A DNA stretch of 64,000 nucleotides from Pegea sp. RAD2-039. Lineage: Eukaryota; Chordata; Thaliacea; Salpida; Salpidae. A program made the translations under genes and the position numbers. Of this stretch, positions 3,501 to 61,754 are shown piece by piece. The notes under the pieces are model-generated. The model was not told where the DNA came from, searched no databases, and saw only the letters and a list, made by a program, of their open reading frames with translations. Location of the stretch: contig JAQGEQ010000071.1 in the NCBI GenBank assembly GCA_034620365.1, positions 1,240,001 through 1,304,000 of the forward strand. Direction: 5' to 3'. Each line of letters starts with the position of its first letter. The stretch's first letter is position 1.

Positions 3501-6378
3501 GTTTGTTCAATATTTTTTTGATTTTTACGTTGTAAGGCCTTGTGAGTAATATTATCATTACATTTCTTGAAAAATATTAACATAAATAGGTCTCTTGGAT
3601 CAATCTTTACTGTTAGGTGAAGCTGGGTATTATTTAACAATTTTGATTAGTGCTGTCCAAGTTATCTTCAGTGTAAAGACGAGGCCAGCTGACCTTCCAA
3701 ACATTTGCGACTTACAAGTAAATAACATAAATTTCTTTTCACTTAGCAATTATCTATTTACTTAATAATTTCTTGATTATTCTTAAATTTGAATACATTT
3801 AAAAAATAATTTTTAACCTTCTTAGTGTTTTTTATTTAATAGAAAATTACTGATTGTAATGAGAGTTTCTCCATTTAAATTAAAAATTGATAATCACATT
3901 GAGAAATTAGAATAATGAATAAATAAAATATAGACTTTGTAATTTGTCTTCTTATTACTTTACATAATCTTAATATCATAATTGAATGGTAAATATTCAA
4001 GTTGTGTTCATTGTTTTTTTTGCAGGCATTTTTGAAAGTTGGTATCAAGGTAGATGAAAATAAAGAAACAATTATTTACAAAACCCTCCATGTTCCCCCT
4101 AACATGACCTCTCACAACCTTTGCCAAATGATCGCTTTGAAGTACAAAATAAAAAATCCTGAAGTTAGTTGATCAGTGCTCACAAAATAAACTTTATTAT
4201 TAGTTGTAGAAAATTTTTTTAGAATTTGTTTAAAGAAGTTAACAAGATTATAAATCAGTTGTTTGGTTTCAGGACTACTGCTTACACGTTGTAATTCGTG
4301 AGCAAGTTTGGCCACTGAAACCTGATGAATGTCCGCAGCTAGTAAAAACTGATCTAGTTACTCAGATTTCCAAGGAATCATTCAGATTTGTATTTATAAA
4401 AAAGTCAGCAAAAGGTAAGTTTTGAATGATAATACTTAAAGCAAATTACATAAAATGATTTGCTTTTAAATTCTATAAACAAAATTTAGTTGCAGAAAAA
4501 CAAACACCTAAAAAAAGAAAACAATCTCCTAAAAAGGAAGTATCAACGAAGAGTAAAACATCTCCTGAACGTTATTTTGAAGTAAAACCAACTAAAGAAG
4601 TAGAAATAATTGAAAATGAAGATTCAGCTAATTTAAAAAAAGAAAAAGAAAATAAGATATCAGCGAGGATGCAGTTTGACAACCCTACTTATGAAGATAT
4701 TCCTACAAAGATCATGATATATAAATCTTCAAATGTAACAACCTCTAAGTTAAACTCAGAAAATTCGATTTTACGAGACTCAAAACAAGATGAGTCTGAA
4801 GCAAAAGAGTCTGAAGAAGTCTGCGTGAAGTCTTCAAGTGAAATTATAGATGAAAGGACATCAAAAGAAACAACGGAAATTGAGCCAAGGAAGTCTTTCA
4901 GTGAAACAACCGAGCTCAAAGAGCAGGAAAATGTTTACGATAACAAGTCCTCAACAAGTGGCAAAGTTTTACGAAAAATAGATTGCTCAAAAGTTGATAT
5001 ATCCAATGATGAATCCAAAGTTCAAAGCTCAAAGTTTGAAACGGAACAAAATAAACTAGTTTTAAGTGAAGAAAAAATAATTGATGAAAAAATAAGTCAA
5101 GCAGAAGAAAATAAGCAAGTTGTTGAGCATCAAACGAATAAAAAAGAATTAAATAAACTAGTAACAAATGATATCAAAGAAAATCTTGAGAAAGTTAGCT
5201 CTTTAAGCGAAACGAATGAAAAAGGCGATGAAGTATTTGGTGAAGATTTTGAAAAATTTGTAATTGACTCAAAATGTTCAAACTCATCTATCAACCTCGT
5301 TGACGAAGAAACAAATAATGAACAAACTCAGGCTTTTATACATCCATCAACTCACAACTCAGAATCCAACTCAAAATCGGAGTTTAAATCTAGCGCAGAA
5401 TCTCTAACTGAATCCAATTCAGGACACAGCTCAAAATCAAGTTCAAAATCGGACTTTAAATCTAGCGCAGAATCTCTAACTGAATCCAATTCAGGACACA
5501 GCTCAAAATCAAGTTCAAAATCGGACTTTAAATCTAGCGCAGAATCTCTAACTGAATCCAATTCAGGACACAGCTCAAAATCAAGTTCAAAATCGGACTT
5601 TAAATCTAGCGCAGAATCTCTAACTGAATCCAGCTCTGAATGCAGTTCTGAATCTAGCTCAGAATCTAGATCTAAAGTTCGACCAAAAATCGGTTTCAAC
5701 GATCTTTCACCTGAATCAAATAGTTTTAAAAACGAAGAAGAAAACGTGAAGAATGCAGCTCCACAAATTGATGTCAAAACTGAAGCTGTTGACAGACTAT
5801 GTATTAAAGAGCCAAATACAACATGTCTTGAGACTAATGATGACGTAAACGTAAATATAGATGCTATCAAAGAAGATATAAAAGATAAACACTACAATAC
5901 TAGTGTAGAAATAATAGACAACAGTGTTGACGTAGATGAAAATGTATGCGATGAACTTGAAGGAAAATTACAATTACAACAGAATGGAGGAAATGATAAG
6001 TCTGATCAATTAGACACAATGAGTGAGAAAAACCGACTTAGTGATACCTCAAATGAAATAAATATTGAAGATCAATCAAGTGAATTCGATTATGTAAAAT
6101 ACAAAGGGTTTGATCCAAAATCTATAACAGTTACAATAAATCAAGATGAAGACATTAAAACACCAGTCAAAACCGATGAAGTGGAAACCTGGAGAAAAAT
6201 AAAGCCAAAAGTACCAGCAAAGAAAATGCAAAAGTCCTGTTTATCATCTGATAAAGTGAAAAAGCGAAAAAGCGAATTGTTCTTGGAGATGGACGAGAGT
6301 GCTTACATATCATGTTGCAACTCTGCCAAAGTATCTACATTGACGCAATTTTTTGAGTCAAAAGCAAATGCCCAATAA
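547..6378 (+). CDS. RIN: RIN-family Rab5 guanine-nucleotide exchange factor, 3' part (RH/VPS9/RA plus long tail)
   Basis: Partial gene whose 5' end lies left of the window. Exons: 547-715, 1298-1446, 1610-1734, 2121-2292, 3372-3500, 3590-3717, 4026-4163, 4273-4414, 4490-6378; joined they stay in frame for about 1012 residues to the TAA. The order matches Ras-and-Rab interactor proteins: a helical RH region, a VPS9 domain (exons 3-6) and a Ras-association domain (exons 7-8). VPS9 signatures visible are LPLHRVIYRRLIIS, TYSPYMKLKHLL, ADDFLPLFVYSL and LLGEAGYYLT, the last carrying the Tyr and Thr used in catalysis in this family. The expected role is activation of Rab5 on early endosomes downstream of Ras or tyrosine kinases. 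The SH2 domain expected N-terminally is not in the window. The first ten bases may be the end of the preceding exon (frame fits, donor weak). Unusual is the last exon: about 630 residues rich in Ser, Glu and Lys after the RA domain. Confidence 0.85.
5371..5658 (+). repeat. 72-bp coding minisatellite in the RIN tail
   Basis: Four head-to-tail 72-bp units start at 5371, 5443, 5515 and 5587. Each encodes 24 residues containing the segment DFKSSAESLTES. Units 2 and 3 look identical over the part read. Unit 1 has Glu for Asp, and unit 4 diverges in its second half. The length is a multiple of three, so copy-number change keeps the frame. Confidence 0.92.
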
Positions 6379-13422: not shown

Positions 13423-13968
13423 TCATTTTTTATTCATGACAGCTTCCATCATCAATTTCTCGAACTCTTCAAATGTTATGCCTCGAGTAAATAGAGATAG
13501 ATCCACAATAGTTTGTTCTGCCACTATTCGGAGCTGATCGTTTGTAGCATTTGAACCCATTATCACTGAAAGTGCTTCTATAAATTTGTCTTTAGTTATT
13601 TTTCCATCTCTATCTGTGTCATACAAAGAAAATGCAAACTTGAGCTTGCTTCTCAGACTCCCATAGTCACTATCTATCTTAAAAGCACTTTTGCTGCGTC
13701 GAAACGTGGCAAGAATATTGACAAACTTCTGAAAAATCAAATTCTCATTTTCATTGAAGAAAGTTTCAATGATTCTATCTGCTAATGGATTAAACCCTAA
13801 ATCTTCAATTTGCATCAAATCATCTTTTGTTAAATAACCTTTTGACTTTTTATCTAAAGATTGAAAACGTAAGAAAAGATGATTCAATTTCTGTTCAGAA
13901 AACCCTGTTTCTTCCATCATAATTCTTATTTCTTCTTCCTGTAACCCTCTGGAATGATTCGAACCCAT
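13423..13968 (-). CDS. CHP1: Calcineurin B homologous protein (CHP1-like), intronless
   Basis: One uninterrupted frame of 181 residues, starting MGSNHSRG (N-terminal myristoylation consensus). Family landmarks are EETGFSEQKLNHL, RFQSLDKKSKG, FNPLADRIIETFF and LKFAFSLYDTDRDGKIT. CHP proteins are myristoylated EF-hand partners of NHE Na+/H+ exchangers and inhibit calcineurin. The usual length is about 195 residues. CHP1 binds calcium through EF3 and EF4. Here EF3 (loop 117-128) keeps D117, D119 and D121 but has Lys128 where the family has the bidentate Glu. EF4 (loop 157-168) has Leu, Leu and Thr at positions 1, 3 and 5. Calcium binding is therefore probably weak or lost. The lack of introns among intron-rich neighbours suggests a retrocopy, although the frame is fully open. 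Confidence 0.85.
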   Translation of the reverse strand: MGSNHSRGLQEEEIRIMMEETGFSEQKLNHLFLRFQSLDKKSKGYLTKDDLMQIEDLGFNPLADRIIETFFNENENLIFQKFVNILATFRRSKSAFKIDSDYGSLRSKLKFAFSLYDTDRDGKITKDKFIEALSVIMGSNATNDQLRIVAEQTIVDLSLFTRGITFEEFEKLMMEAVMNKK

Positions 13969-16319
13969 TTCAAGTGTTTCAAATACTTTTGAATTCTATA
14001 GAATTTTGAGAAGAACAAACAAACTGACTGATTGATAATTTGACAGCAAGCTAAAGCGTGTTTATTGAAAATACCATTCGTATAGCTTGATTAGATTTAA
14101 TTAGTTTTAAAAGTAGACTAGCACTGGAAGTTAAATTAGTTCCTGGAAATACTAATACATTATTCATAAAAAGTTAAAGAAATTTCCCTTATTTTGATAA
14201 AAATAATTATTTTGTTTTAAAAACTGATAACTGGGTTAAACCTGCTTATTTCAATTCTATATTTTTTAAATTTTTATGTTTCTATTATAATTGTTTCAAC
14301 AATTTCGAAAGCCTTTAAAGCTTTCTTTACTCTGAGTATAATTTGAAAAGTAACTTATATTACAGATGAACGGTTAAAGGTATAAACAGTTTTATAAGTA
14401 AACGATAATTTAGCTTTATATCATTTAAACATTTCGAATTTGATATGAAAGTAAGTTATTTATGAGTTTTAATTTAACGTTTATAAAAATCATATCACTG
14501 CAAACAGCTTACTCTGTCAATTTTCACCTTTTCTTATGATTAGCTGAATGCAAAACTTAAATAAAATATAAACCTTGAAACAAGCTACTTGTGCTAAATG
14601 CTCGTCTTGAAAAGATCTTAAATTAAAATAATGCTACAAGATCAAATAATAAGAAATTTCCCAATTTTATGATCAGAAGTTGAAAAGCATGTCAACTTAA
14701 AGGGCTAAAAGAAAATTGATCATCACCTTACCAAGAAATACTCTTTACTCGTAATCAGTTACAGAAAGAAAAAAATAACCTATGTTGACAAAAACAAAGT
14801 TTAAGATTTTGTTTACTAAGTTTAACTTGTTTTTTTTCGAGTTAGACTATAAATCGATTGAAGCAGTTTTATATTTTGCCATGAAATACTACCTAGATGT
14901 CAATAAAACTGTTGATGGTCAAAAATGTGAAGGTTTTTGAAAATTACTATGAGTTGCTATCTTCTTCTATGTCACGTGAAGTAAATCATTTGAGCGTGAA
15001 GTACTAAATTTTAATCAATAATTTAACTAATCTAAAATTATTCAACTGTAATATTTTAATAAATCTGAGATTTATCGTAAAGAGTATTTACAAATTTCCA
15101 ATAAAAGAACTAATTCAAAAAAGTTGAAGTAAGTTTTTGTTTACTGCAAAACATAAAAACAAGTGAAATAACACTAACTTGGAAGCAACTAAAATAATCA
15201 ATTATGCTTAGTGAAAGCAAATACATCAAAGCTTGTGCTTGTCACTCTGATAGATTCTTATAAGTATACTTTCTCCCTTTTTTCCAAGTGGCAAATAGAA
15301 AACATGTTTTTATGAAGAGCTTTTATCTAAGCTCTTGTGGCTTTCTCTACAGCAATTAAGTTAAAAACAAAATGTTTTATGAAAAGAAATTTTAATTAAG
15401 ATTGAATAATCTTAGATAAAGCATATAGAAAGTATTGTTGTTTTTAAAATTGTTGTTTTTATCATTTAATAAATTTCATCTAATACTTAAATCAAATTTG
15501 TTGCAAATTTTTCTCATGTTGAAAAAGCAAACTTAAATCTTGATGTAATTGAACGCATATATTTTATTCAAATTTCCACTAGTTTTAAAGAAAACACAGG
15601 GTACAAATTTAATTGTTCAATTTGTAATTTTTTGTTGAAATTTTGCTTGATGCAGTAAGATACCGGATGTTTAAGCTCTTTTCTTCCTTTTTCTTTTCCT
15701 GACTTTTAAGCAAAAATGTTTATCGATAATATCGAAAATTAATTGTGACAATTTTTTTTGTGCTTTTTACTTTTCAAGTTGTAGAATTGAATAAGTAAAA
15801 AAGTAACAGATTTATAATAAAAATATCATGAATATTATTTACTGTATATAATTAGTTTTTTGTTCCAATTTTTTGTCCGAAAGAATAGCGACTTAACAAA
15901 CAAATTCAAATATTTTATTTGGCTTCACTTGATGTATAAACATTCTTTCTTGCTCTATTTATATTCAGCGCAAAGACTGGTTAAAGATTTGTGCAATCAA
16001 TTTATAGTTAAACGAGTGTAGGTGTGAGTAAAGAATATCTACATTACTGATGAAGCAGTTATAGCTGTAAAAACATCTTGTGACCCTTTGTTGAGGTTAA
16101 TAATAAGCCATAAAATCTTAACACCTTTAAAAGTAAAAATACCGAGTAAAAATAGCAAATATGCTTCAAGAAATTTTTCAAACATTAAGCTTTTTTAACC
16201 CTTTCAAAGAAAAGTGATGAGAAAAATTACTAAAGACAAATGGTTTTTTTGGTATTAATGAGATTCAAAATCTTTGAAAGGAGATTCAGTTATAATTATG
16301 ATAAAAATGAAGTCACATC
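13969..16319. other. Intergenic, no gene seen
   Basis: A/T-rich spacer that holds the 5' flank of the CHP1-like gene. No exon was recognised. Confidence 0.45.
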
Positions 16320-18450: not shown

Positions 18451-21400
18451 ATGACTGATTTAGTATATACCCTTTATAGTGATGATGAAATTGACATAGA
18501 TCCTGAAGAAAGTAGTGATGAAGAGGTACAGAAACTATGTTTATCTTTTATCTTATTTCATATAAATTACATATAATTATATATGTATAAATTTTAATTA
18601 TATATTATATTATTATGAAATCAGCCTTGTAAATTCTATGTTTATATTCTTATAACAATTAAATTCATTTATAAATATTTTGTGTGTTTTCTAAATTTAT
18701 TGTTTTCTAATAATTTATATGATTTTGATAATTATATTTTTTCTTAAATGTTGAATGAAGTAATTATTGAAATAGAGTTAGAGCATAAATATAAAATCAT
18801 TTTAGTAAAAAATAGCTATCTCATATATTTTGTAAATATAATAAAAACTTGTTGTTTTACTAATGTAAAGTTCTTTCTAAATGGTTATTATTTAATTGCT
18901 CTTTTAGATCACAGTTGTAACTAAAAAGCAAAGAACAAAAAAGAAAGCTGAAGCAAAGCTTTTTAGTTCTGGATTTCAATTTCAGCATGAAACAAACAGT
19001 TTATACCAGCAATCAGCAATTGAAGATGCTATACAGTCTGCTTTAAAAAAAAGAGTATGTTGATTTCTAATCATAATGATTTATTTAAAAGTTTCTCTAA
19101 TTACATTCATTTAAATAGTTTATTCTAGTCGATGTATTTAAAAGTAATTTTTAAATGTTTATTTATTTCATCAAAAATTTAGTTTTATTTACTCATTGTA
19201 AAAAGAAATAAACTCAATGATTTCAAATGATAGTGTTTAAATGAATAATATATAATTACTAAGAACTAATAGTTTAATGTTATATTATTTCATAAAAATA
19301 AAAATCAACATTAAAAAAATTGTCCTTAAAATAAAGATTATTGCATTAAAATATTTAACAATTAAAATTTATTTTGTATAATTCATATATTTGCATGGAA
19401 ACAGTTATTTTTGAAAGTTTAATGTCTCATTTTTAATGACATTTATTTTATAAATTTAATTTCTAATTGACTATTTGTAGAAATATTTTAAAACACTTTT
19501 AATTGTACATATGTTGTATTTTTGTAAACAGTATTTCTTTATTAATTTATATGTATCTTTTACTATTTGTTTAATTTTCAGAAGCCTAGAACTACAGTAG
19601 AGGAAAAAATTCTTGAATTACGTTCACAAAAAGAATCAAACTCAACAGTAAGATGTGTGAATAGCTAAATCTTTACAACTTTTAATTTTAATTGGAATTT
19701 TTTTAACATGACGATTTATTCTAATTTTTTCAGACTGAATTAAATTCAGTAAAAGTTATTGATGTAAAAGATGAAGATCATCCAGAAGATTTAGTAGAAA
19801 GTGATGAGGATCTCGAAGTAATTAGAGGTATGTTTTTATACCTTTTTAATGAAAAACTTAGCAGTTTTTAAATGATTTAAAGATACTCTGAGACTTAAAC
19901 AGAAGAAAGGCAAACAGAGTATCAATGTTGAAGACTCCAATGAAGCAGCTATTCCATTAGCTGAAGTGAAAGATGAATCTACAGAAGATAAAAGCATTAC
20001 ATGGAATCCTGATATTTCATTTGCGGTTCGTTGTATAATCAAACAGAAATAATCTCTACATTGTACAAGGATCAAACAATCATCAATTCCATTTATCATT
20101 TAGGAAATGAATCTTTCAAGACCTCTTTTAAAAGCTATTTCTGCAATGAATTATATAACACCAACTCCGATTCAACAAGCAGCGATCCCAGTTGCTTTGC
20201 TTGGAAGAGATGTTTGTGCATGTGCTGCTACTGGAACTGGTTTGTTCATTTTCATTCATGAATTTATCTTTAAGCTTTTTATCAATACCTTTGTGTGCAG
20301 GTAAAACGGCTGCGTTTATGCTTCCTGTATTAGAAAGACTCATCAACAGACCCGCTTTATCTGCGGTCACAAGAGTCTTGTGTCTTCTTCCCACTCGGGA
20401 GCTTGCTGTTCAAGTTTTCGCTGTCACTAAGCAACTCACTCAATATACAACTATCAGAGTTTGTTTAGCTGCAGGTTCGACATGACACTTTTTTTAAAAA
20501 CAAATTTCAAGAATATTATTAAGAGAGCAAATATTGAAATCTTTTGATGCTTTCATCTTCATCAAGGTGGAATGGATATTAAGAGTCAGGAAGCTGCGAT
20601 GAGAACGAGTCCAGATATAATTATTGCAACTCCAGGAAGACTTATAGATCATTTGCATAATACGCCCTCATTCACTCTGAACAACATCGAGATTCTGATC
20701 TTAGATGAAGCTGATCGGATGCTGGATGAATTTTTTGAGGAACAAATGAAAGAGATCATCCGATTATGCTCTCATCAACGCCAGACGATGCTCTTTTCAG
20801 CTACTCTCTCAAATGAGGTCATTTAATTAAACAAATTTCAGAAAAAATAACTTTTATATCTTTAGGTGGAATCTTTAGTCGCTGTTTCTTTAAAGAATCC
20901 AGTCCGGATCTTTGTCAATTCTAACACGGATGTTGCTCCGTTTTTGCGCCAAGAGTTTATCCGGATTCGACCAATGAAAGAAGGAGATCGCGAAGCTATT
21001 GTAGCTGGTAAGTGAAGTCCTCATCCTGATACCTCGATGACAAATCGTATTTTAGCTCTTTGTAGTCGCTCCTTCCTCACAAATGTCCTGATCTTCACTC
21101 AAACTAAGAAGCAGGCTCACCGGATGCACATTCTACTCGGGTTGATTGGAATCAAGGTATTTGTGAGTCAATGTCAGCTAGATACTGATGATTGTTTAAC
21201 GACAGGCGGCAGAACTTCACGGAGATTTGGCTCAAAGCGAACGATTGAAGAGTTTAAATCGTTTCAAATCAAATGAAGTTGATGTGTTGGTGTGTACGGA
21301 TGTTGCATCACGTGGTCTTGACATCGACAATGTTAAAACAGTGAGAAGATTTCTAATTGATAAAAATCGTTTCGTAGTGAATTGCATCAAGACCCTGCTT

Positions 21401-22513
21401 CTAGCTCGATGTTATATTGGTCGGTTTAGTTTCTAAACTCCAATAAACAAAACCAAGCCAAGAAAACTTATCTCAGATACAAATGTGAAGTTTGGTGGTT
21501 AAAGGTGCTGAGGTGTCGTCACCTTATAACACATACTGACTAAATAGTTGCTTGCTCTCTCTAAAAATTCAAAATCTTCCAATTCCTTGCATCAGGTTAT
21601 CAACTTGACGATGCCAAACACTCAACAGCACTATGTTCATCGAGTCGGTAGAACAGCTCGTGCTGGCAAGACTGGTCGCTCAGTCTCGTTAGTTGGTGAA
21701 AGTGAACGGAAACTGTTGAAACAAATCGTGAAGTTTGCCAAAACGTCTGTCAAAAGTCGAGTGGTTCCAGCTGGTCGGTTTCTTTCAAAATATTTCGAAA
21801 TATTTTTGTCATTTTCGTTTTTTAGAGGTTATCAATAAATTCCGTAAAAAGTTGGATGATTTGGAATGTGAAATTGGCGAGGTATTGAAGATGGAAGCAA
21901 ATGAGAAGAAGATCTTGTCCACGGAGAATCAAGTTAATAAAGCTGAGAAGATACTGAAGGGAGAGGAAGATGCAAAAAGGGTCTGGTTTCAGAAACGAAT
22001 TGATCGTCAGCTGATTAAAGGTAGTTTGCCGACTTTGTTGAAATCATCAGATTTTTACTGATTGTAAATTATTAGCTGAAAGAATGCTTGGGGTTCATTC
22101 TGAAGTCGGTAAGCGCTCTAAAAAGAAAATGCATCAAGAACAAAAAGCTGATAGAAATAATGTAAGTTTCTCTTTTGTGTCCACATTTCTCATGATTTAA
22201 AATCATTCTTATTCCCAGGCTGATGATAGAATGCAGAAAGAATTAGAAAAATCAACTCAATACAGACACAGAATTGAAAAAAGAAAGCGAAAACCAAAAC
22301 GTGTTCGAGCTTGTGTTGAAACGGCTCCTCCTGCTAAAAAGATGAAGAAGCAAACGAAGAGAAATGGAGGACTGTTTGATGGCGACCTGACTAATACCAG
22401 CAAGAAATCGGTGAAGAAATTCCGCAACATGTGAGTTCTTGGTTTTAATGTAAACAATTTTAAAATTGTGAATTTGTAGTAAGAAAAGTGGTGGTCATCG
22501 AAAAAAGAAATAG
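18451..22513 (+). CDS. DDX27: DEAD-box RNA helicase DDX27 (yeast Drs1 family)
   Basis: Sixteen exons: 18451-18525, 18908-19054, 19582-19647, 19734-19827, 19883-20025, 20104-20239, 20301-20474, 20567-20817, 20866-21007, 21056-21156, 21206-21340, 21596-21773, 21826-22020, 22076-22161, 22219-22430, 22480-22513. They join in frame to 722 residues (human about 796). The N-terminus is acidic. Q motif [14 protein letters not shown], motif I AATGTGKT (217-223), Ia PTREL, Ib TPGR, II DEAD (325-328), [15 protein letters not shown] and [12 protein letters not shown] are all present. The C-terminus has the DDX27 coiled coil ([13 protein letters not shown]), VWFQKRID and a Lys/Arg-rich nucleolar tail ending GHRKKK. 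DDX27 acts in the nucleolus in 60S ribosome and 47S rRNA processing. Many introns are only about 48-70 bp. Several donors are weak (GTACAG, GTCATT, GTCGGT), but the frame and motifs support them. Confidence 0.95.
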
Positions 22514-23068: not shown

Positions 23069-24369
23069 TCAGCAACAGCTGCACAGAGATTCACACTCAT
23101 ATAAGCCACCAGTTGCTTTTATTTTTGTAAAAAATGATCTAGTATTATCTTTCTTCTTGGTGCAGTTGATAAAACTCAAAAGACATGTAATTGAAGCTGC
23201 AAAAATAGTATGAAATGCTGCATGAAAATACTCCCCACCAACCCTGCAAACAGTGATTACATTACCAACAGCTGCTAAAATTTTCATTAGTGCCAATTTA
23301 TTAGTTTTTATAAAACTAAAAAAATGATTCTAACTTACTCGTAACTTAGAACAAATTTGAGCACTAGTGCAAGCCCCAGTAAAAAGAATCCAGGCAACAA
23401 GCTTTTTTTCCAAGTATCAAACTTCGGTCGTAAAGATTTTTTCTTAAATGTTTTCAGCCCCTAACAATGATGCAAACTGTTTTTTGACTATTAAAGTGTA
23501 TTTTATAGAAACTCAAAAGATGTAATTTCATAGGATTTATCTTTATAAGATTTCTAAAAGTTTCTTTTATCTGATAAAGAAATATTTTATAAGCTCGATA
23601 CATAAACTTTTGAAAGTTTTCGGATAAAAATTACATAAGTTTTGTACATACCCATGACACAACAAATACTCCCAAAGCAGCTGATAAAGGAATAGCAAAG
23701 GCATCCCTATCAAGAGAACCTGCTATGAATATTCGAACATTACTCATATAACCAATTGAAGTACAAAGAAATCTTCTGCAAGCAAAAAATATTTACTTTG
23801 AATTGAGGCTTAAGTTGAAACAGCTTAAAAATCACTTTAAAAAAATATGAAGCAGCTAAGACAACAATATTTCACAAAGTAGACTAAAAAAAGGTTTAAC
23901 TAACTTGACATCTGGATTCAAATCAGCTATTTCAATTACTGTGTAAACAGCTGATAGCACTAAGGCACAGTTATGAAAATAATCAACGATTTTTCGTATT
24001 TGTGAAACTTCATTATTTCTATCTAGAACTTGAACAACTATCGAATCAAAAAAGGGTAACTGCATAATATGAAACATCTGTTTAAACAAAAAATACTTTC
24101 ATTAAAATAGTTTTTATTGATAGTTGATAATAATTTTCATATTAAACATTTAACCAAGTGCTTCAAAATGACCAACTTTAAAAGAATTAAAACTTTTGAA
24201 ACTGTTTTTCATTAAATAAATAATTTAGACTCACAGCCACTGAGACAAGTGTAAATAAATATATAAACGAATGTGTCTTTAAATTCTTCTTCTTTGCCAT
24301 AACAATTGGAGCTACAAAAGCTTGAGTAGTTGTTATGCTAATAGCTTCACTTGAAACTTTGTTTCCCAT
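23069..24369 (-). CDS. MYMK: Myomaker-like (TMEM8 family) seven-pass membrane protein
   Basis: Five exons on the minus strand: 24235-24369, 23905-24077, 23652-23775, 23339-23460, 23069-23243, giving 242 residues (human Myomaker 221). Phases at the junctions are 0, 2, 0, 2. Residues line up along the whole Myomaker sequence: FIYLFTLVSVAMFH with YLFTLFFVALHH; IVDYFHN...IADLNPDVKR with ILEYFSV...LADFDEPKR; LLPGFFLLGLALVLKF with the IGPGLCFGALALMLRF segment; and YFHAAFH (H192, H196) with YVHSFYH. The tail ends CESLCSCC, like the Cys-rich, palmitoylated Myomaker C-terminus. TMEM8/Myomaker proteins belong to the CREST group of putative membrane hydrolases, and vertebrate Myomaker drives myoblast fusion. 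Whether this protein fuses cells is inference. TMEM8A/B, the broader family, is the alternative, but the Cys tail and lack of a large ectodomain favour the Myomaker type. Confidence 0.8.
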
Positions 24370-27300
24370 TTCAAAATTTACGAAAGCTAAGATAAATGAT
24401 AAAAAAATAAGCTTACAATAAACGTTTTTTATAAAACACTTTACCTTTTTGTACGTTTAAAGACTACAAGAATTTAGTTTAGAGACTATTTCTGCGAACA
24501 TTTAAGATAAGCAAATGTGTCTGATGTGAAGCAATAACTTACAACTAACAGTCTCATCCACCTGCTTATTCAGCTTTATACTTAAACTTTGAACACCCAA
24601 GAGACAGAACTGAACTGAATTAACAATTAGCAGCAAGCTTTTTCAGATGTTATTTTTAAACAGAATGATGAAAACTATCAACAAATACTATTCCATTAAT
24701 GAGTAAGAATAGTTTAATTTTATATTCAAGTTTAGTTTTAAAAATTTTAAACGTTTTTAGGATACTGAAATACTTATTAAATTTTATGAATAAACTAAAA
24801 CTGTTGATTAACATTTAAGTAATTAAAATTATTTTAAAAATTATTATTTAATAAAAACTTCATATGATTATTTTATGAATCTTTTTGAGTTAAAGTCAAA
24901 TGTTTTTTTTCGAATGCTGAAAGTAAATATAATCTGTTGTAATCACGAAAACTCTAAAACTCAAAACATTTTTTGGAGTAAATAATAGTTTAAAAGTTTG
25001 CAAAATTTCAATATCAACTAAAATCTTTGAAAAGTTTTTTGACAAAACATTCATTTAATTAGTCTTCCTAATTTGAATCACATCTATTAATAGTGTCATA
25101 TAAAAAGACTTTAGTTTACATAAAGTTATCAAAACCTATTTAATTTGAATATTATACATCAACATCTTTAAAAACAGTTTACATATGAGATTATGGAAAA
25201 ATATATTGACAAAAGTTTCTAAATCAACAGATTATTTCTTATATATCATAAGACTTATGAAAATATTTTTCAAGCAAAATATTAATTTATTAATTAATTT
25301 ATCTTAACGCAGACCGTTTTATTATAAATTTGGTTTCAATTACGACGTAAACAGCTGAGGAAACCACAAATGAATCTAACCATTTTCATGTTTCAGTTAT
25401 TCAAAAACAATTTTTTTTGCTTTTCAATGAACAGTTGATTACATAAGCTAAGATTTATTTTGAATAAAATCTTTTTCATAATTTAATATCAATTTGAAGT
25501 AAATAATATTTTACTATTAAATTGATATAACATTTATGTATTGCTTCAGTTATTACATCACCAAAGCGACTTAAAATACTGTTATAAAAATCCTTAAATA
25601 ATAAAAGACAGCTGATAGAAATATATTTAAATGCGATTGTTGTATTATGTAATTTAGTAAAATCGACAAAAAATAAGTGAAAAACCTTTTTGTAATTTGT
25701 TACTTAAGCAATGTTTCATTAGCCTAATTTTCTTGCTATCATTGATAGCATCATTCATAATAAAAGTAACTGCAAAGTACGTTCAAATAAGTAGTTACAT
25801 ATTAAATAGTTAAAAGTTGAAAACAAAGTATTCATTTTTTTACAGTTAATAATAATTATAAAACTAAAGTTATGAAAAAAGCATATTTATATTTGATTAG
25901 ATTTAGTTTTATAATGATTTTTAGGAACAATAGATTTTAAAAGATTATCAATTCTCTGTGCTCACCTGGAATTGTAATTGGAAGTATGACTTAGGAGACT
26001 GCAACTTTGGTTTAAATCACGAATAGAGCGTAAAAACAAGGTATAGTAGGATGGAGCAGCTTAACCTATAAAAAATCGTAGATCAATTCCCAAACTTCTA
26101 CTTAACAGTGAAGAGTTCTGAGTTTGTCGACTTGAGGGGGCTTACTACAAGTATGATATGTAGAAATAGTTATAATTTTGTTGATTTATTTGGTAATTTA
26201 AAAGGTTTAAAAAGTGTAAAACAAAAAAGCAAATTTACAGTTATTTTGGAATTGCTATCTCATTTCAAATAGTTAATCGATATTTGTAAATTCAGTTTTT
26301 AACCTTTTGGCTCAATTGAAACTTTTACCAAGAAGCATCATTTAAGCCCTCACTGTGAGCAATGAGACTTGTTCAGTAATTGTATTGTTTACAACAATAG
26401 TATTTTAGTTTGATTATGAGCTTAACTATTGTTTTCTGCTAAAGCGACCACATTAAGTAAGAAATTGGCTAATGTATCAGCTGATATTTAAAATCTGCTG
26501 ACTATATTGGTATAACAATTTAAATGAAAAATTATCAAAAAATAAAGTTTTAAAAATGAGCTGCGTAAGATGAAATATGCTGAAATGTGTTTTAATGTGA
26601 AACATTCAAACTGATCTATCTGACTCTAAAAATGTTAACAGTTTTCATTGCTTAAACAATTTTATAAAATATTTAGCTACTAACATCGTCTCTTCATGTG
26701 TCAGTTCCTTATGCATATGATATCTTCTTATCAAAACAAAATTTCAAAAAGAAATTGTCAAATCCCATTAAAAATTAGTATTTAGGAAAATGGATTCATA
26801 ACTCACCCTGAAATTGGTAACAAAAACCTTAATAAAAATTCCAGTCAGAATAATTTGTTTTTTCAACATAAAGTCAAATTTTATACCTAAAGCTAAGATA
26901 AAGACATTTTTAGACACGAAAATTAATCTTTTTACTAAAATATGAGTTAGTAGTAGAATACGTTTGTAGAAACGCTATTAATCGAACTTATGAACACCTT
27001 AAATACTGGTGACAGAATAATTGTTTGCAGTTATACAATTCTTTTGAGTTGTATTTCTAAATTTCAGTCAACTAATTCTTTAGACTGAATTTTTTAAATA
27101 TTTATTTCTTAAAATATAACTTTTGAAAAGCTTATATGAAAATATTTTGAAAAAAATATTCTTAATATTTTATGTAATATTCTTAATAAGTAAAAATAAA
27201 ACAAACGAATTTCTAATTATTTATGTGAAGAATCAAAAGAGTAAGCAACTATGTATCTATGCAGCTGTTTAATAATTTGTGACTCATAAATTGACGATGA

Positions 27301-27704
27301 TTTGAGATTCAGTTGTTGTTGTAAATGCATAAGCTGCCAAAATGGTATTTAAGTATGCTAAATATTATCCCAATTTAAACTGTTGTCATTGGTTATTAAA
27401 TCATATAGAAATGATATATTTAGCAACTCGTTGATAGGTCTACATGAAATAAAAACATAATTGCTGATTTGATTAACTACCAGTCTTATATATAAAGTCT
27501 TAGCAGTTTTTCAAATGCTATTAGTGTTATTAAATAGAGCAAGCTTTTAATACAGTATTGTATAATGAGTTTTATTTAAGTTTTTGAAAGTTTTGTATAG
27601 TTGAGATGAGAATACAAGATTTTTTAAATTTATTTATTGTGTCAGTAGATACTTAAACACTTAAAAAGTAGTTTTAGTTTGAATTTTAGCTGTAAAACAC
27701 CATT
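24370..27704. other. Shared upstream region of two divergent Myomaker-family genes
   Basis: About 3.3 kb between the two start codons. Mostly A/T-rich. A short richer segment at about 25960-26150 stands out in composition but encodes nothing I recognise. If the two genes share control elements they would lie here, but none can be named from sequence alone. Confidence 0.5.
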
Positions 27705-29380
27705 ATGCTTTTGATCAAGATCATTTCTCCGTTTATTGGATCAGTGGCAACACTGACTTTACTTGTACCAATTGTATATGCTTTCAAAAAAAGAAAATAT
27801 TTGCTAGCGCTAATATTCTTGGTTACGATGCTATCACAATTTGTAAGTAAATATTACATCAGGTTTATTTTTGAACTAATTGAAATAATTTATGTCTTGT
27901 TTAAAAAAAAGATTCTTACAGATAAGTTTTCTTGATATTTCATTTAGTATAAAAAGGCTTACTGTTAGAAATATATTTTGTTCATTCTTGATTATTCAGA
28001 TATTTTAAAATAAATTTTAAAACTGTAAATACTTTCAGGTTAATACTCTGTTCATGACTGTTAAAGATCAGTTGAAACAGGCAGATTTAAATGACTTGGA
28101 AAGATATATTCTGCTACAATTTAAATTTGATTGGGTTCCATCTTGGTATATCCTTTCTATAGCAAAATTTTCTCTACTTTTATCAATTTCATCAAGCTTT
28201 CTTGATTCGATGTTGGCGTTTGGGGTAGTGGAGTAAGTATCACCGAATTTTACATTTTCAAGTTGTACTACAAAGTTGTAAACTAAAAAATATTAAATTG
28301 TATCAGGTAGGCTCGATTCTTAAAATTATAACATAAATCATAAAACAAATTGTTACAATAGAAATCTAAATATTCTGTAATATATAAATATGTTTATTTC
28401 ATGCTTAAACTCTACAAATATCAATTTGAGTGAAGTATTTTTTTGAAGCTTTATAAAATACAGTAATTAAGTATTAGTTTAAATTAAAAAGGTTACAAAA
28501 AGAAAAAGAATCAGGAAATTATTTTAAACATGTTTAATGATTATTTCTTATTTACAGATTTATTTTTCATGTTACTTACGGTATTGGTACTTTTTGTTTT
28601 GCAATCCTTCAAGAGGTAGAAGTCAAATTTCTTTTTATAATCTGTAGCACTATTCCTTTGGTGACATCTATTTTACTTTGGGTGAGTTATTCATCAATAT
28701 TAACCTATATATGAGACAATCAATGCCATTAGTTTTTACTTTAAGTAAATATAATAATAATTATTATAAAGAACATAATAATTATCTTTTATATTATTAA
28801 CGTTCTATGTAATTGTTCACTGTTATATTGTATGACTTCTGAAATGTTATGTGTTACATCTTTTCTTTCTCTATTTCTAACTTAATGGGTATTATTTGTG
28901 TTCACATTTATTTTAATCAATAGATATAAAAATAATAAATAAATGAATAGTTTCAAATATTTTTCAAAAAATGTAATCCTAAATGTAACTGTTGAGGTTT
29001 CAACAATAATTATTTGAATATTTTCTTTACTTTTTTTAATATTTTAGTTTATAAGAAACCGCGATGGTTTCAAATTATCGGACCACAAGGCTTTGTTTCT
29101 GCATAGAATCATTCCTGGCATAATCTTGTACATCACTGCTATATTTTGTCATGAAGTTATAAAAGAGTAAGTTTCTTTTATCGATTTTATCTAGATATTA
29201 AATCTGTTTTTTTTTTATAAATTTAGTTTACTGTAGTAAATAGAATCTGATTAAAGTTTTTTGAAACAATATTTTTTCAGCTTAACATATCTCGGGTCCC
29301 AAGTGTGTTTTTACTCATTTTTATCCGTTAGTTTCACTGTACTTTCTGGATACAAGTATAAAATGACAAACGATCAGTAA
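27705..29380 (+). CDS. Divergent Myomaker/TMEM8-family paralogue
   Basis: Five exons: 27705-27842, 28039-28232, 28558-28681, 29048-29166, 29281-29380, giving 224 residues with about seven hydrophobic segments. Exon phases (0, 2, 0, 2) match the Myomaker-like gene at 23069-24369. Exon lengths are close: 138/194/124/119/100 against 135/173/124/122/175, with exon 3 exactly 124 nt in both. Sequence anchors are LVPIVYAFKKRK against FVAPIVMAKKKN, FLVTMLSQFVNTLF against YLFTLVSVAMFHIM, and HRIIPGIILYI against KSLLPGFFLLG. It lacks the paired His (YLGSQVCF where the neighbour has YFHAAFH), lacks the early Phe-His and lacks the C-terminal Cys cluster, ending KMTNDQ. The TMEM8-type fold is likely kept, but metal-dependent or palmitoyl-dependent functions probably are not. 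The sequence is weakly conserved, so the family call leans on gene structure. Confidence 0.7.
28800..28930 (+). mobile_element. Old LINE 3'-UTR fragment in an intron
   Basis: Intron 3 of the Myomaker-family paralogue contains a stretch resembling 44785-44900 in the same orientation (shared TGTTCACTGTTATAT, ATGTGTTACATCTTTT, then TTTCTAACTTAATGGGTATTATTTGTG-like sequence). It ends in A/T-rich AATAAATAAAT-like bases as the LINE copies do. Probably an old 5'-truncated insertion. Confidence 0.55.
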
Positions 29381-45709: not shown

Positions 45710-48250
45710 TTATTTATATGAATTAGCTTTGTGTTTGGGCAAGAAGGTGAAAGAATCTGGAACCTTCCCGAGCAACATCTCACTAAAAACTAATCTGTCA
45801 GGATAAAGTTGATAGAGATGATGAAGCAAACCTGATCTTTACCCAATCTTCACAATTGTTGCTTGCAAATAAAGTCTCAAGATCATCTCTTCCAACATAC
45901 TTCGAAGGACGTTCGTTAATACGTTGAGGAGCTTGCTCCAATAATCCCAATGGAATGTATCTGAATCAGAAATCAAAATCCAAGTTGGAAGCAAGCGGAT
46001 TAAAGACTCACCTGTATAAGAATGAGAGCCATTCAAGAAGGAACCTCCGAGTTGTTTCCACTCCCTTCGTATCACTTCCCCAGTGCATCAATCCTTCGTT
46101 AGTAAAGTCCTGGAGGATGGTCAGCCTCTCAGAGCTGGATATATCCCAATCCCTACGCTCTTTGATCTCTGTGAAGATCCAGGGCTTGATAAGGGCACCT
46201 CTGTAATTGACATCTTTAATTCCTGCAACATCCAATCACTGGGACCTACTCACCGTCCAAACATGACTCCGGATATTGAAGTATTGTCCATGACAGACCA
46301 GTAGTCCTGTTGGGTTAACACATCGCCATTTCCAAACAAAGGCATTGGGGCGGCATACTTAGCACACCGATCCACATACGACCAATCAGCGATCTTTGTA
46401 TATCGCGCTTCACGGGATCTTCCGTGAATCTTTACAACAATAAGTCACGTGACTGATAAAGATCAAAGTGAGATCACTTACAGTGACAAGATCAACTCCG
46501 AGATCACGCAGCTTCGGAATGATCTCATGAGCCGTGTTTTTCCGGGATTCGACTCCGGTTCGCATCTTACACGTCAGCGGGATATCGAGGACATTACGCA
46601 TACAAGACACGATATCAAACAACTTTTTGGGTCTTCTCATCAAAGCAGATCCTGCTCCCTGTTCATCAACAAATTAATTTAATCCCTGGATGAGGTTGAC
46701 TCACTTTCTTGTATACTAGATCAATAGGACACCCCATATTGATATCTACAAAATCGATCTCACATTCCTTGTTGATCAATTCAGCGCATTTAGTCATTGT
46801 ATCTGGGAAAGCTCCACAAACCTAAAGATCAAAATAGTTTAAATTGGATCATGATCCGGAGCAGTCAGTACTTGGATTCCAAAGATGTCTTCACAAGGAT
46901 GTCTTTTCAGCAACGCCCATTCAGATAGCTGAGCTTGAAGAAGGTTAGTGGACATAGCCATCTCACCACAAGTTACGTCCACACCTTGCCGTTTGCAGAC
47001 CACCCGAAATGGTAAGTTGCCACACTGGTCACGAACATGTCAACTTCATCGAGGCTATCATTTACGAATTCTTACTGTTGTCAAGGGAGCGAGGAAGAGC
47101 TTTTCGCGAAAGTCGATCGTCTTCTTTTCAGAGTTGCGCAGAGGAAAGAGATCACAATTTGTGAGAGCTCCCAGATGCGGAGTCTTATCATCTTCCTTGA
47201 TATTTGAAGATTCAGAATGATCAGCTTCGTTTTCAGCAACTTTCTCTTCTGAGATTTTCTTCCTTTTTGTATTTAATTTGTTCAAATGGTCGAGAGTTGC
47301 TTTGCTATCAGCAAAAGGAAATTTGCGTTTTCTCAGCGATTGTTTTAGCTCTTGTGAGATTGTGTTGCCCATTTCAAAAGAGTTGATCTCATCTTGAACA
47401 AGATTCACATAACCTGTGAAATTGAAGCAAAAATGAAGAAAAGTTTAAACAATTTGTCAATTAGCTAAACACTACCTTTGCCTTCCTGATATTCAGTGTG
47501 GTCTTGAGCATATCTGCAAGCAAAACTGTACTTGCAAATGCCTTGTCGACGATAAGTTATACATTCTTTTCCTATATCTTCAGGTTTAATTTTTAGATAA
47601 GCTTCTATATCGTGCAAAAATTTACAGTTTTCTTGAAAACTACAAGTGCCATGTTTAGTTGCCTACAATAAAGTTCACAAGTATTGGTTTAAAATAAATT
47701 GAAAATTGGTTTGTTTAAGATTACAATTATAGTTTCTTAGCTATAAAGTTGTACATTTAAGCAGCTTCTATATAGTGCACAGAAAATTGTAACATGAAAA
47801 ACCTACAACACTGGGACAAAGCCTTTTGTCATAATTGTCCTTGTGATAATGTGGTCGATTTTTGTTTTGGCCTCGTCTTCTGTTCTTACTTTTGTCATTT
47901 CCTTCAGCAGGTTTAGTTATCTGAAATCATATTTGTATCATATCTAAAATAAAGACTAGTTTCTAAGGATAATTGAAAAGTTTAAAGAAAATAAATATAA
48001 TACTAACATTGGAAGATTCTTCTTTCTTAGAGATAACAGGAGAGGTTGTGACAATATATCTAAATGAACAAATGTTAAAGATGATGAGAATTTTATATAA
48101 AGTAAATCTATCACCAAAAATAATTTTATTCCAAAAATTAAAAAAATCAAATCAATAAAAGTACTTTTTATCTATTTTAGCAGTTCCATCACCACCACTT
48201 GAAACAAATCCAAGATAATCGCTTGTAATTAATGAAAAATCTGTTGACAT
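45710..48250 (-). CDS. DUS3L: tRNA-dihydrouridine(47) synthase, Dus3-like
   Basis: Twelve exons on the minus strand: 48165-48250, 48008-48059, 47807-47920, 47476-47662, 47076-47413, 46872-47024, 46705-46821, 46482-46658, 46254-46429, 46012-46200, 45832-45960, 45710-45782, in frame for 596 residues (human 650). N-terminal part: a basic linker ([11 protein letters not shown]) and two CCCH zinc fingers (C81, C91, C97, H101; C118, C127, C133, H139). The catalytic TIM barrel begins at KLFLAPLTT, continues with VTCGEMA, then [16 protein letters not shown] with the active-site Cys341, [30 protein letters not shown] and [14 protein letters not shown]. The C-terminus PKHKANSYK matches human DUS3L. It reduces U47 in the variable loop of tRNAs, and uridines in some mRNAs, with FMN and NADPH. 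COX17 lies 227 bp upstream on the same strand. Confidence 0.95.
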
Positions 48251-48699: not shown

Positions 48700-50427
48700 T
48701 CTAAGAAAAAAAACATAAGTTATAATTTGTTATAACTTTTCATAAACTAATATTATAAACTATTTTTAAAATATTTATAGAAGTTAAAAATGAGTAACTA
48801 AGATGACTTTAACTTAAGAACTAAGAAAAATTAGATGACAGTTTTAACTCAAAGTTAATAAACAAAATAATGATAAGACCATAAAAAGTGGATTATCATT
48901 GATCTTATTAATTATTCTAGCTACAGTTCACCCTAAGAAAATTAATAATATGTTTATAAAAACCCCAAGAAGGTTCTGAAGTAGTTTCAAAAAACTACTT
49001 GACTGTTATTATAGACTAATTATCAAAAGATTGTTTTCAATTTCAAAATTTGAAGCACTTATTATAATATGGATCTGAATAGAAGGGCCAATATCACATT
49101 TTTATTAAAAAAAGGTTAAAACAGTTTTAATTTGTTTGAAATATAAAAGATCTTTATTTTCAAACCACATATTTCCAGTAAAACAGATACTTTTTAATAT
49201 TTAAGGACTAATTAATATAAATTCACAGTTAGAAGTAATCTTTCAAACAAAATTATTCAAATGATGCTGAAATAATGAAAGCAGTGAATACAAAAAGATT
49301 ATTTTCTAAAAATGTAAAAACATGATGTTAGTAACAATTCTCTTCAACAATATTTAATTTGATTTCTTGACAGAAAAGTTGTTTAAATAAAACAGCAGCT
49401 CCAAGCTTGATGAATAAATCATACTCTAAGAGCATGATCTTATTTTCAAAAATAAGTGATTACAACAAGCATCGTCAACTAGTAATAATTAAATGAATTA
49501 ATGGAAACATATCAAAATTACTACATCAACTAAAGGTAAAAAATTAAGCAACATTGAATTAGCTAAAAATAAAATATTAAAGAATTATAAAATATATGAG
49601 GTAGTTAAGACATTTTTTATTCAAATGAGACTTTAATGATTAAGATGAAAATTCTGCTAATATAAAAATTATTTTAAGCAAGTTGATAACTTAATGCAAG
49701 GTTATAGAAACAATTCCATGCTCAAATTGCACAAATCAAAAAAATAAAAAAATTTATACAAACAGAATTAGAAACACAGTTATTGCAGTTTGCATTAAAC
49801 ACTTCATATTCAAGGCTTATCATTAAAGGTTGTTTCTTACTACATGTGGCGAAACAGGAATAAAATATATTTTCGACAAAAGTGAGATAAAATGGAGTTT
49901 TTAAAAGTTGGTATGATTAATTAAAATTAAAATTTTTTAAAAAGCAACTGCAAATATTTGGTTTCTTTAGTCAAAAAATGTTTTCCTATATAATTTTAGC
50001 TAAAATCATTTTTCAATTCTATAGTGAAAATTAAATTTTTAGATAATATTGTTAATTAAACTAGAATTAGATGGAAATCATCCCGATATATATATTCATA
50101 AAAAGCAGCTACATTCATCTATCAGTATATATTTATCTATCAGTATACATTCATCTTCTGCTCTTATACATTGATAAAACCAATATAAGCTGCAAAATTT
50201 AACAATGAAGTTTCCTTTCATGAATCAAAATATTTGTTAAATGTTTGCCACTTTAAAAATTTTTTAATTAACCAGTTTGTAAACTCTAAGTTTAAACAGT
50301 TAATTAATTATCTTTATGCCTATCTTACGAGCTATAATATTTAGCCATTCCCAATCTATGAAGTACGCTTTCAGAACAACTTAATGAGTTAGATTTTTAA
50401 GTTTTAGTTTATCAGTATTTACATCGT
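48700..50427. other. Intergenic, no gene seen
   Basis: A/T-rich region between COX17 and the LINE. There is a small duplicated phrase (ATCTATCAGTATA) near 50115-50145. No exon recognised. Confidence 0.4.
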
Positions 50428-51591
50428 TTGTATGCTTGTGTTTTTATTACCAGTGTAGAAAGATCTACTCCTAGTAAAGTCACCAGCGGCGTTCCTCAGG
50501 GTTCCGTTCTGGGTCCACTTCTCTTTTTGATTTTCATTGAAGACCTCATCAGAAGACTAATAACAGTAGACAATGTCAGTGTGTTTGTGTATGCAGATGA
50601 CATCAAGCTATTATCTGGTTCTCACTCAAAACTCCAAACTGCACTAAACATTGTAGAAAACTGGTCTGCGAATTGGCAACTTAAAATCCAGCCAACAAAG
50701 TCTGAAGTTATAACATTCTCCCGTAAGCCAGCTGCCAACTTCAGCAACCAATACTACATCAATGGATCCATTCTTGAACGAGTATCCTCAGTCATAGACC
50801 TCGGCATTACTCTGACATCTGACTTCAAATGGCACAGTTATGTTTCCAGAATCTTTGGAAAATCTATCAAGCTTGTCCACCTCATCATAAAGACTTTTAA
50901 TTCTAAAGATCCATGGTTTTTCGTCAACCTTTTCAAACTGTACATACGCCCTATTCTTGAATACAATGTCAGTGCATGGATGCCATATCAAGTTGGTGAT
51001 ATCAGAAAAATCGAATCTGTTCAGGCAACATTTACGAGATTGGTTTGCAGGAAACTTAATATCAAATACGAGAGTTATAAGCGTCGTCTCAGCTTCTTCA
51101 ATCTAGATACTTTGGAAATCCGAAGAATTAAATACGACCTTATTCTGATTTTTAAAATTATTCACAACCTAATTGATCTTCAGTTTGATGACTTTTTCTC
51201 CATTAGTCCCTCCCTCAAGTTATATCAACTTAGAAGACATAAATTACATCTTAATAAGCCCACTCCACCAGCTACGTTAACCAGATTAAGTTTTTTCTCA
51301 TACCGCACAATCAGTACATGGAACAATTTGCCATCAGAGATTGTCATGTCAAAATCACTTATGCTGTTCAAGAAAAAGCTGAATTGTTATAATATCGCCA
51401 ACATTGCCATTTCTAAACTGTGAATTTTTCTCTTTTACAATACTATGATTCTGTGCAATTCTTCATTGTCATATGCTTTTTCGTTTACACGTCAAATAGA
51501 TCTAATTTGTGAGAATGTGTGTTAGCGAGAGGTGCTCTCTTTAGGCACCCTCCTTCACATTTATTGTAATAAATAAATAAATAAATTACTT
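50428..51591 (+). mobile_element. 5'-truncated LINE with open reverse-transcriptase C-terminal half
   Basis: The frame 50428-51423 is open for 331 residues, starting inside the reverse transcriptase: SGVPQGSVLGPLLF (motif B), VFVYADDIKLLS (motif C with catalytic YADD), IQPTKSEVITFS (motif D), DLGITLTSDFKW (motif E) and a CR1/Jockey-type thumb and C-terminal region (KIESVQATFTRLVCR, LRRHKLHLNKP, RTISTWNNLPSEIV). Everything before motif B is missing, so it cannot move by itself. The 3' UTR has a small stem-loop (AGGTGC...GCACC) and an AATAAATAAATAAAT tail. Frame integrity and near identity to 42041-42425 indicate a recent insertion. The clade call is from motifs only. Confidence 0.9.

Positions 51592-58983: not shown

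Positions 58984-61754
<2,771 letters not shown>

Follow-up and report, generated by a model that had tools for sequence, protein, structure and literature searches.

Myomaker (Mymk, TMEM8C) is called a seven-pass protein in the literature. It has been reported to have arisen from Tmem8 in the common ancestor of tunicates and vertebrates and to be required for the multinucleation of muscle (PMC11441980, PMC8805411), and its presence in tunicates is already published and not new here. A review places its action at hemifusion (PMC10377500), dimerization of the protein has been described (PMC12517348), and multinucleated post-metamorphic muscle is described for both ascidians and thaliaceans (PMC6589888). 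CREST was defined by three hydrolase motifs, SxxxH, an Asp, and HxxxH, and the same source characterizes vertebrate TMEM8c as a single-domain protein of about 220 residues that is without the CREST Ser and Asp (Pei et al. 2011, PMC3146951). TMEM8 itself is a multidomain protein, and its transmembrane domain (DUF3522) is common to it and Myomaker.

We compared these systems with a pair of genes, here called gene 1 and gene 2, found in the window, by which we mean the whole 64-kb stretch of DNA analyzed (GC content, 28%), and searched the genome from which it comes (105.7 Mb in 387 contigs). The reading that we favor, at a probability of roughly 60%, is that gene 1 is a Myomaker orthologue and gene 2 an old, divergent, non-fusogenic duplicate from the Myomaker/TMEM8 lineage.

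Gene models of the pair and the Myomaker-type gene

The exon borders of both genes are predictions and were rebuilt from the DNA (Table 1). The rebuilt models agree with the original prediction of two intact five-exon genes that lie head to head about 3.3 kb apart and encode 242 and 224 residues. The exon lengths, counting the stop codon, are 135, 173, 124, 122, and 175 nt for gene 1 (minus strand) and 138, 194, 124, 119, and 100 nt for gene 2 (plus strand); the start codons are separated by 3,336 bp, and all eight introns have GT-AG borders. The matching junction phases (0, 2, 0, 2) and the exon 3 of 124 nt in each gene were likewise confirmed. In same-composition Markov controls, 16.4 in-frame stops were expected for gene 1 and 12.8 for gene 2; none was observed in either gene, a comparison that somewhat overstates the case because the models were chosen for open frames. 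Additional support for the exon borders of gene 2 comes from a third gene, on contig C84, since its phases are identical. Both products had also been predicted to span the membrane seven times. At the threshold used, seven hydropathy peaks were found for gene 2 and for the C84 gene, as predicted, but only five for gene 1 and for this genome's own TMEM8, so that the seven passes of gene 1 are taken from the alignment with the solved Myomakers.

Table 1. Positions of the predicted exons, the spacer, the candidate control sites, and the related genes elsewhere in the genome (window positions unless a contig is named)
Feature	Position	Strand	Details
Gene 1 exon 1	24235..24369	-	Start codon 24369-24367; intron after residue 45, phase 0
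Gene 1 exon 2	23905..24077	-	Contains H48
Gene 1 exon 3	23652..23775	-	124 nt; contains R117 (mouse R107) and P132
Gene 1 exon 4	23339..23460	-	
Gene 1 exon 5	23069..23243	-	H192xxxH196 and cysteine-rich C-terminus (SLCSCC)
Gene 2 exon 1	27705..27842	+	End aligns with gene 1 intron 1 to the nucleotide
Gene 2 exon 2	28039..28232	+	End aligns 3 nt from gene 1 intron 2 (intron-blind alignment)
Gene 2 exon 3	28558..28681	+	124 nt; end aligns with gene 1 intron 3
Gene 2 exon 4	29048..29166	+	End aligns with gene 1 intron 4
Gene 2 exon 5	29281..29380	+	Without HxxxH and without C-terminal cysteine cluster
Spacer between start codons	24370..27704	.	Codon score and self-match search
Candidate E-box CACCTG	24559-24564		Upstream of gene 1, -190
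Candidate Ebf-like site	24595-24604		Upstream of gene 1, -226; two mismatches
C84 gene (predicted)	C84:581803-583822	-	248 aa; exons 141/257/136/122/91 nt; phases 0, 2, 0, 2
Own TMEM8 transmembrane domain	C114:202990-203538	-	Pfam E 9.0e-44

The Gene 1 product matched DUF3522 in Pfam with an E value of 4.7e-13 (50.1 bits, against a curated cut-off of 29.3). Its best match in the PDB was Ciona Myomaker (E, 1e-17), with mouse Myomaker at an E value of 2e-10, and its identity to the Ciona robusta and mouse proteins (PDB 8t05 and 8t03) was 28% and 27% over 194 and 199 residues, respectively. At the CREST positions, gene 1 has V44 in place of the TMEM8 Ser and H80 in place of the Asp and has kept H48, H192, and H196. 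R117 aligns with mouse R107, the residue altered in one deposited Myomaker structure according to the PDB alignments. A cysteine-rich C-terminus is a defining, modified motif of Myomaker. The tail of gene 1 is cysteine-rich, as are those of the mouse and Ciona proteins (compared tails, STLCCTCV and SIACCIC), and gene 1 differs from these two Myomakers in that its tail and the loop that follows H48 are longer. With 242 residues, a single domain, and neither the Ser nor the Asp, gene 1 also fits the description of vertebrate TMEM8c. Guides against zebrafish mymk were sited in exons 3 and 5 in one report (PMC5504296), and the segments corresponding to these guides, translated by hand, lie in exons 3 and 5 of gene 1, respectively. 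The classification of gene 1 as Myomaker type was thus borne out by its DUF3522 and Ciona Myomaker matches, HxxxH, R117, the cysteine tail, and the loss of Ser and Asp. Weak matches of gene 1 on contigs C322 and C156 (E, about 0.6) were taken as noise.

The genome's own TMEM8, on contig C114, differs from both genes of the pair: its transmembrane domain lies inside a 620-residue open frame, intronless there, and follows a long N-terminal region, whereas genes 1 and 2 are single-domain genes with four introns. Inspection by eye found the Ser, the Asp, and all three His retained in this copy. It is closer to mouse Myomaker (E, 1.2e-27) than gene 1 is, so that the orthology of gene 1 is supported by its motifs, its length, and the match to Ciona more than by distance. 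By sequence and motifs, gene 1 is the tunicate orthologue of Myomaker. Searches of the genome for further copies with the Ciona query and with the own TMEM8 query each led to one place, the C114 gene; the Ciona query and PF12036 missed the short exons of gene 1, so other split genes may have been missed as well.

Homology, residues, and origin of gene 2

Gene 2 had also been assigned to the Myomaker family. Its product had no DUF3522 match in Pfam at E values up to 10, and no relevant match was found in Pfam or the PDB when it was used either alone or as a profile with the C84 protein; we regarded weak matches to LapA, Apo-VLDL-II, DUF4131, DUF5489, and PDB 2euc as noise. A BLASTP comparison of genes 1 and 2 gave a 40-residue stretch with an E value of 0.005 in a one-sequence search, which we did not count as proof. 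When gene 2 was searched against its own genome, a weak match on contig C84 (E, 4.8e-4) resolved to a five-exon gene that has one unusual donor, GTGATT, and an exon 2 of 257 nt. Of the relatives found, the C84 protein was the closest to gene 2 (BLASTP E, 8.7e-21; 29% identity). Identity between the two genes at the first, second, and third codon positions was 0.49, 0.62, and 0.37 over 214 codons, and this pattern, in which the third position is lowest, suggests that they have been constrained at the protein level.

The profile of gene 2 and C84 was then compared with a profile of gene 1, Ciona and mouse Myomaker, and the own TMEM8, which yielded an hhalign score of 34.0, a probability of 42%, and a nominal P value of 2.7e-4. 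None of 150 column permutations that kept the hydropathy class reached this score (mean, 16.7; standard deviation, 3.7; maximum, 31.3), and the reversed gene 2 and C84 profile scored 15.3. For the C84 protein alone, the hhalign probability was only 11%. Intron positions were compared through this profile alignment, which was built without any intron information and was used because a four-protein MAFFT alignment had misaligned the middle exons, as judged by eye. The introns of gene 2 were offset from those of gene 1 by 0, 3, 0, and 0 nt, and in 200,000 trials no set of four introns placed uniformly at random matched as well. For the C84 gene, the offsets were 0, 12, -12, and 0 nt in profile mode and -18, 6, -12, and 0 nt when C84 was aligned alone, with 4 and 10 of 100,000 placements, respectively, being as good under the same uniform null. 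The profile score and the intron positions together support gene 2 as a remote homologue of the TMEM8/Myomaker lineage. The homology part of the earlier family assignment stands, but the DUF3522 match and the Myomaker hallmarks are absent.

In the profile alignment, the residues of gene 2 opposite H192, H196, and R117 of gene 1 are Q199, Y203, and A126, and T53 lies opposite H48 within a gapped stretch. The C-terminal end, YKYKMTNDQ, contains no cysteine. Gene 2 is similar to the Ciona and mouse Myomakers in size and hydropathy pattern and has the intron positions of gene 1, and the aligned residues P144, W152, and P175 are kept, but the three His, the arginine corresponding to R107, and the cysteines of the tail are missing. 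None of the three CREST motifs is present at the aligned positions, and the tested Myomaker hallmarks (HxxxH, the arginine, and the cysteine tail) are missing. On this basis gene 2 is not classed as a Myomaker, but by descent it is a member of the lineage.

A tree built on the profile alignment tentatively placed gene 2 and C84 beside gene 1, with supports of 72 and 87 on the neighboring branches, from six sequences with long branches. In the approximately unbiased (AU) test, the best placement of gene 2 and C84 was on gene 1 (p, 0.79), followed by the internal branch (0.43), TMEM8 (0.21), and Ciona (0.10), none of which was rejected, and placement on mouse Myomaker was excluded (p, 0.013). 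A plain MAFFT alignment of the six proteins instead gave a tree with gene 2 and C84 joined to TMEM8 at 52%. A duplication behind gene 2 is supported, as had been proposed; that it was local is plausible, although the nearest relative found is on another contig and the trees leave room for an origin from TMEM8. As to its source, adjacency to gene 1 and the shared introns favor Myomaker over TMEM8, the latter point because the own TMEM8 has no introns there. Descent of gene 2 and C84 from an intron-bearing TMEM8, with the position next to gene 1 being secondary, would agree with both the AU p value of the TMEM8 placement and the MAFFT tree, but it appears unlikely given that the TMEM8 domain is uninterrupted in its 620-aa frame while gene 2 has the intron positions of gene 1, that gene 2 has the single-domain size of a Myomaker, and that the likelihood is best on gene 1. 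We tentatively infer that gene 2 descends from Myomaker rather than from TMEM8.

Intergenic spacer and possible functions

The spacer contains no frame of at least 60 aa with a positive codon score other than those of the two first exons, and the region from 24700 to 27600 gave two short matches elsewhere and otherwise matched only itself. Rfam gave no matches in the 64-kb window at the gathering threshold. Ciona Mymk is reported to need MRF and Ebf sites that lie close together, at -136 and -116, within a 508-bp intergenic region (PMC11441980). A candidate E-box and a candidate Ebf-like site, the latter type being scored against a consensus, lie upstream of gene 1, and a pair of this kind no more than 300 bp from a start codon was found only there. 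Within 500 bp of the gene 2 start there are one CAGCTG, two other CANNTG sequences, and no Ebf-like site, and a second Ebf-like match, at 25962 in the middle of the spacer, overlaps an E-box. Background frequencies in the window are about 0.58 per kb for the E-box type and about 0.5 per kb for Ebf-like sites, and the sites at gene 1 are close to this, so the pair is a weak candidate that may have occurred by chance. The suggestion that the two genes share a control region was not upheld by this distribution.

Under the favored reading, the product of gene 1 would be a multi-pass membrane protein with a single domain, and its most likely role is to drive early hemifusion as muscle cells merge after metamorphosis. 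Gene 2 would be an old and divergent duplicate from the Myomaker/TMEM8 lineage, with a dispersed relative on C84, that has kept the intron positions and the seven-pass hydropathy but in which the three CREST histidines, the counterpart of R107, and the cysteine-rich tail are gone; its product is most likely a non-catalytic, neofunctionalised membrane protein and not a second fusogen. The proposal that the pair forms a two-part fusion system finds little in its favor in a gene 2 that has none of the Myomaker hallmarks tested. Gene 2 could nevertheless be a dedicated partner or regulator of the gene 1 Myomaker, for example, one that pairs with it in the membrane and is co-expressed in multinucleated muscle. 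This role is possible because Myomaker, the protein to which gene 2 is homologous, is reported to dimerize (PMC12517348), and it would be in keeping with the head-to-head adjacency of the two genes and with the description of Myomixer as vertebrate-specific (PMC8805411), which leaves room for another tunicate partner. We consider it improbable, however, since the E-box and Ebf-like pair, itself weak, occurs only at gene 1, the closest relative found for gene 2 sits on a different contig, and Ciona Mymk alone is reported to be able to induce the fusion of human myoblasts (PMC11441980).

It is still harder to credit that gene 2, perhaps together with C84, is a pseudo-fusogen that this tunicate lineage derived from a Myomaker copy, a partner of Myomaker that would tune or complete muscle-cell fusion and would correspond, independently, to vertebrate Myomixer. 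The parallel is conceptual only, in that each would be a second membrane factor beside Myomaker: Myomixer/Myomerger is described as a single-pass microprotein, whereas the product of gene 2 is 224 residues long and shows seven hydropathy peaks. That gene 2 is unrelated to Myomaker and that the matching phases and exon lengths are coincidental would agree with the lack of relevant single-sequence or Pfam matches and with an hhalign probability below 50%, but this is very improbable given that no shuffle reached the real score, that no random intron placement was as good in an alignment blind to introns, and that the C84 gene repeats the intron and phase pattern.

Among the matches listed (titles and abstracts) for the literature on Myomaker, TMEM8, or Mymk in tunicates, ascidians, Ciona, and salps, there was no tunicate Myomaker paralogue. 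Gene 2 and C84 would make up a diverged set, with at least two members, that goes unrecognized by the searched profile libraries and that has the gene architecture of Myomaker with none of the tested Myomaker marker residues in gene 2. Gene 2 would mark a third stage in the loss of an ancestral hydrolase site, from TMEM8 (Ser, Asp, and three His) to Myomaker (three His only) to gene 2, and the set would offer natural variants with which to ask what residues are needed for fusion. Expression of gene 2 together with Myomaker, if it occurs, would also bear on how tunicate muscle fuses without the vertebrate-specific Myomixer.

Surroundings in the window and genome

A search of viral contigs with the gene 2 and C84 profile produced 222 pattern matches, none of which was confirmed. 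COX1, sought in the genome for the ascidian mitochondrial code, gave no match. The fusion of cellulose synthase to GH6 is a hallmark of tunicates. On contig C14, a cellulose-synthase match (72351-72821; E, 1.4e-5) and a GH6 match (74494-74718; E, 1.2e-4) lie on one strand about 1.7 kb apart and are a candidate for such a fusion. Together with Ciona Myomaker as the best PDB match of gene 1, these markers point to a tunicate as the source.

Within the window, DEAD-box helicase exons (DEAD and Helicase_C) at 20104-21835 on the plus strand lie tail to tail with gene 1. Also on the plus strand, a stop-to-stop frame of 639 residues at 4459-6375 had no Pfam match at an E value of 0.001, and the region 5355-5891 on the strand opposite to it had a much higher codon score. 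A 340-residue frame with a reverse transcriptase match is present at 50401-51420 on the plus strand. The minus strand carries an EF-hand protein frame (13426-13995), dihydrouridine synthase exons (46253-46673), and frames with trefoil and alpha-amylase C-terminal matches (59143-60045), which lie in a run of coding-like frames reaching 61602.
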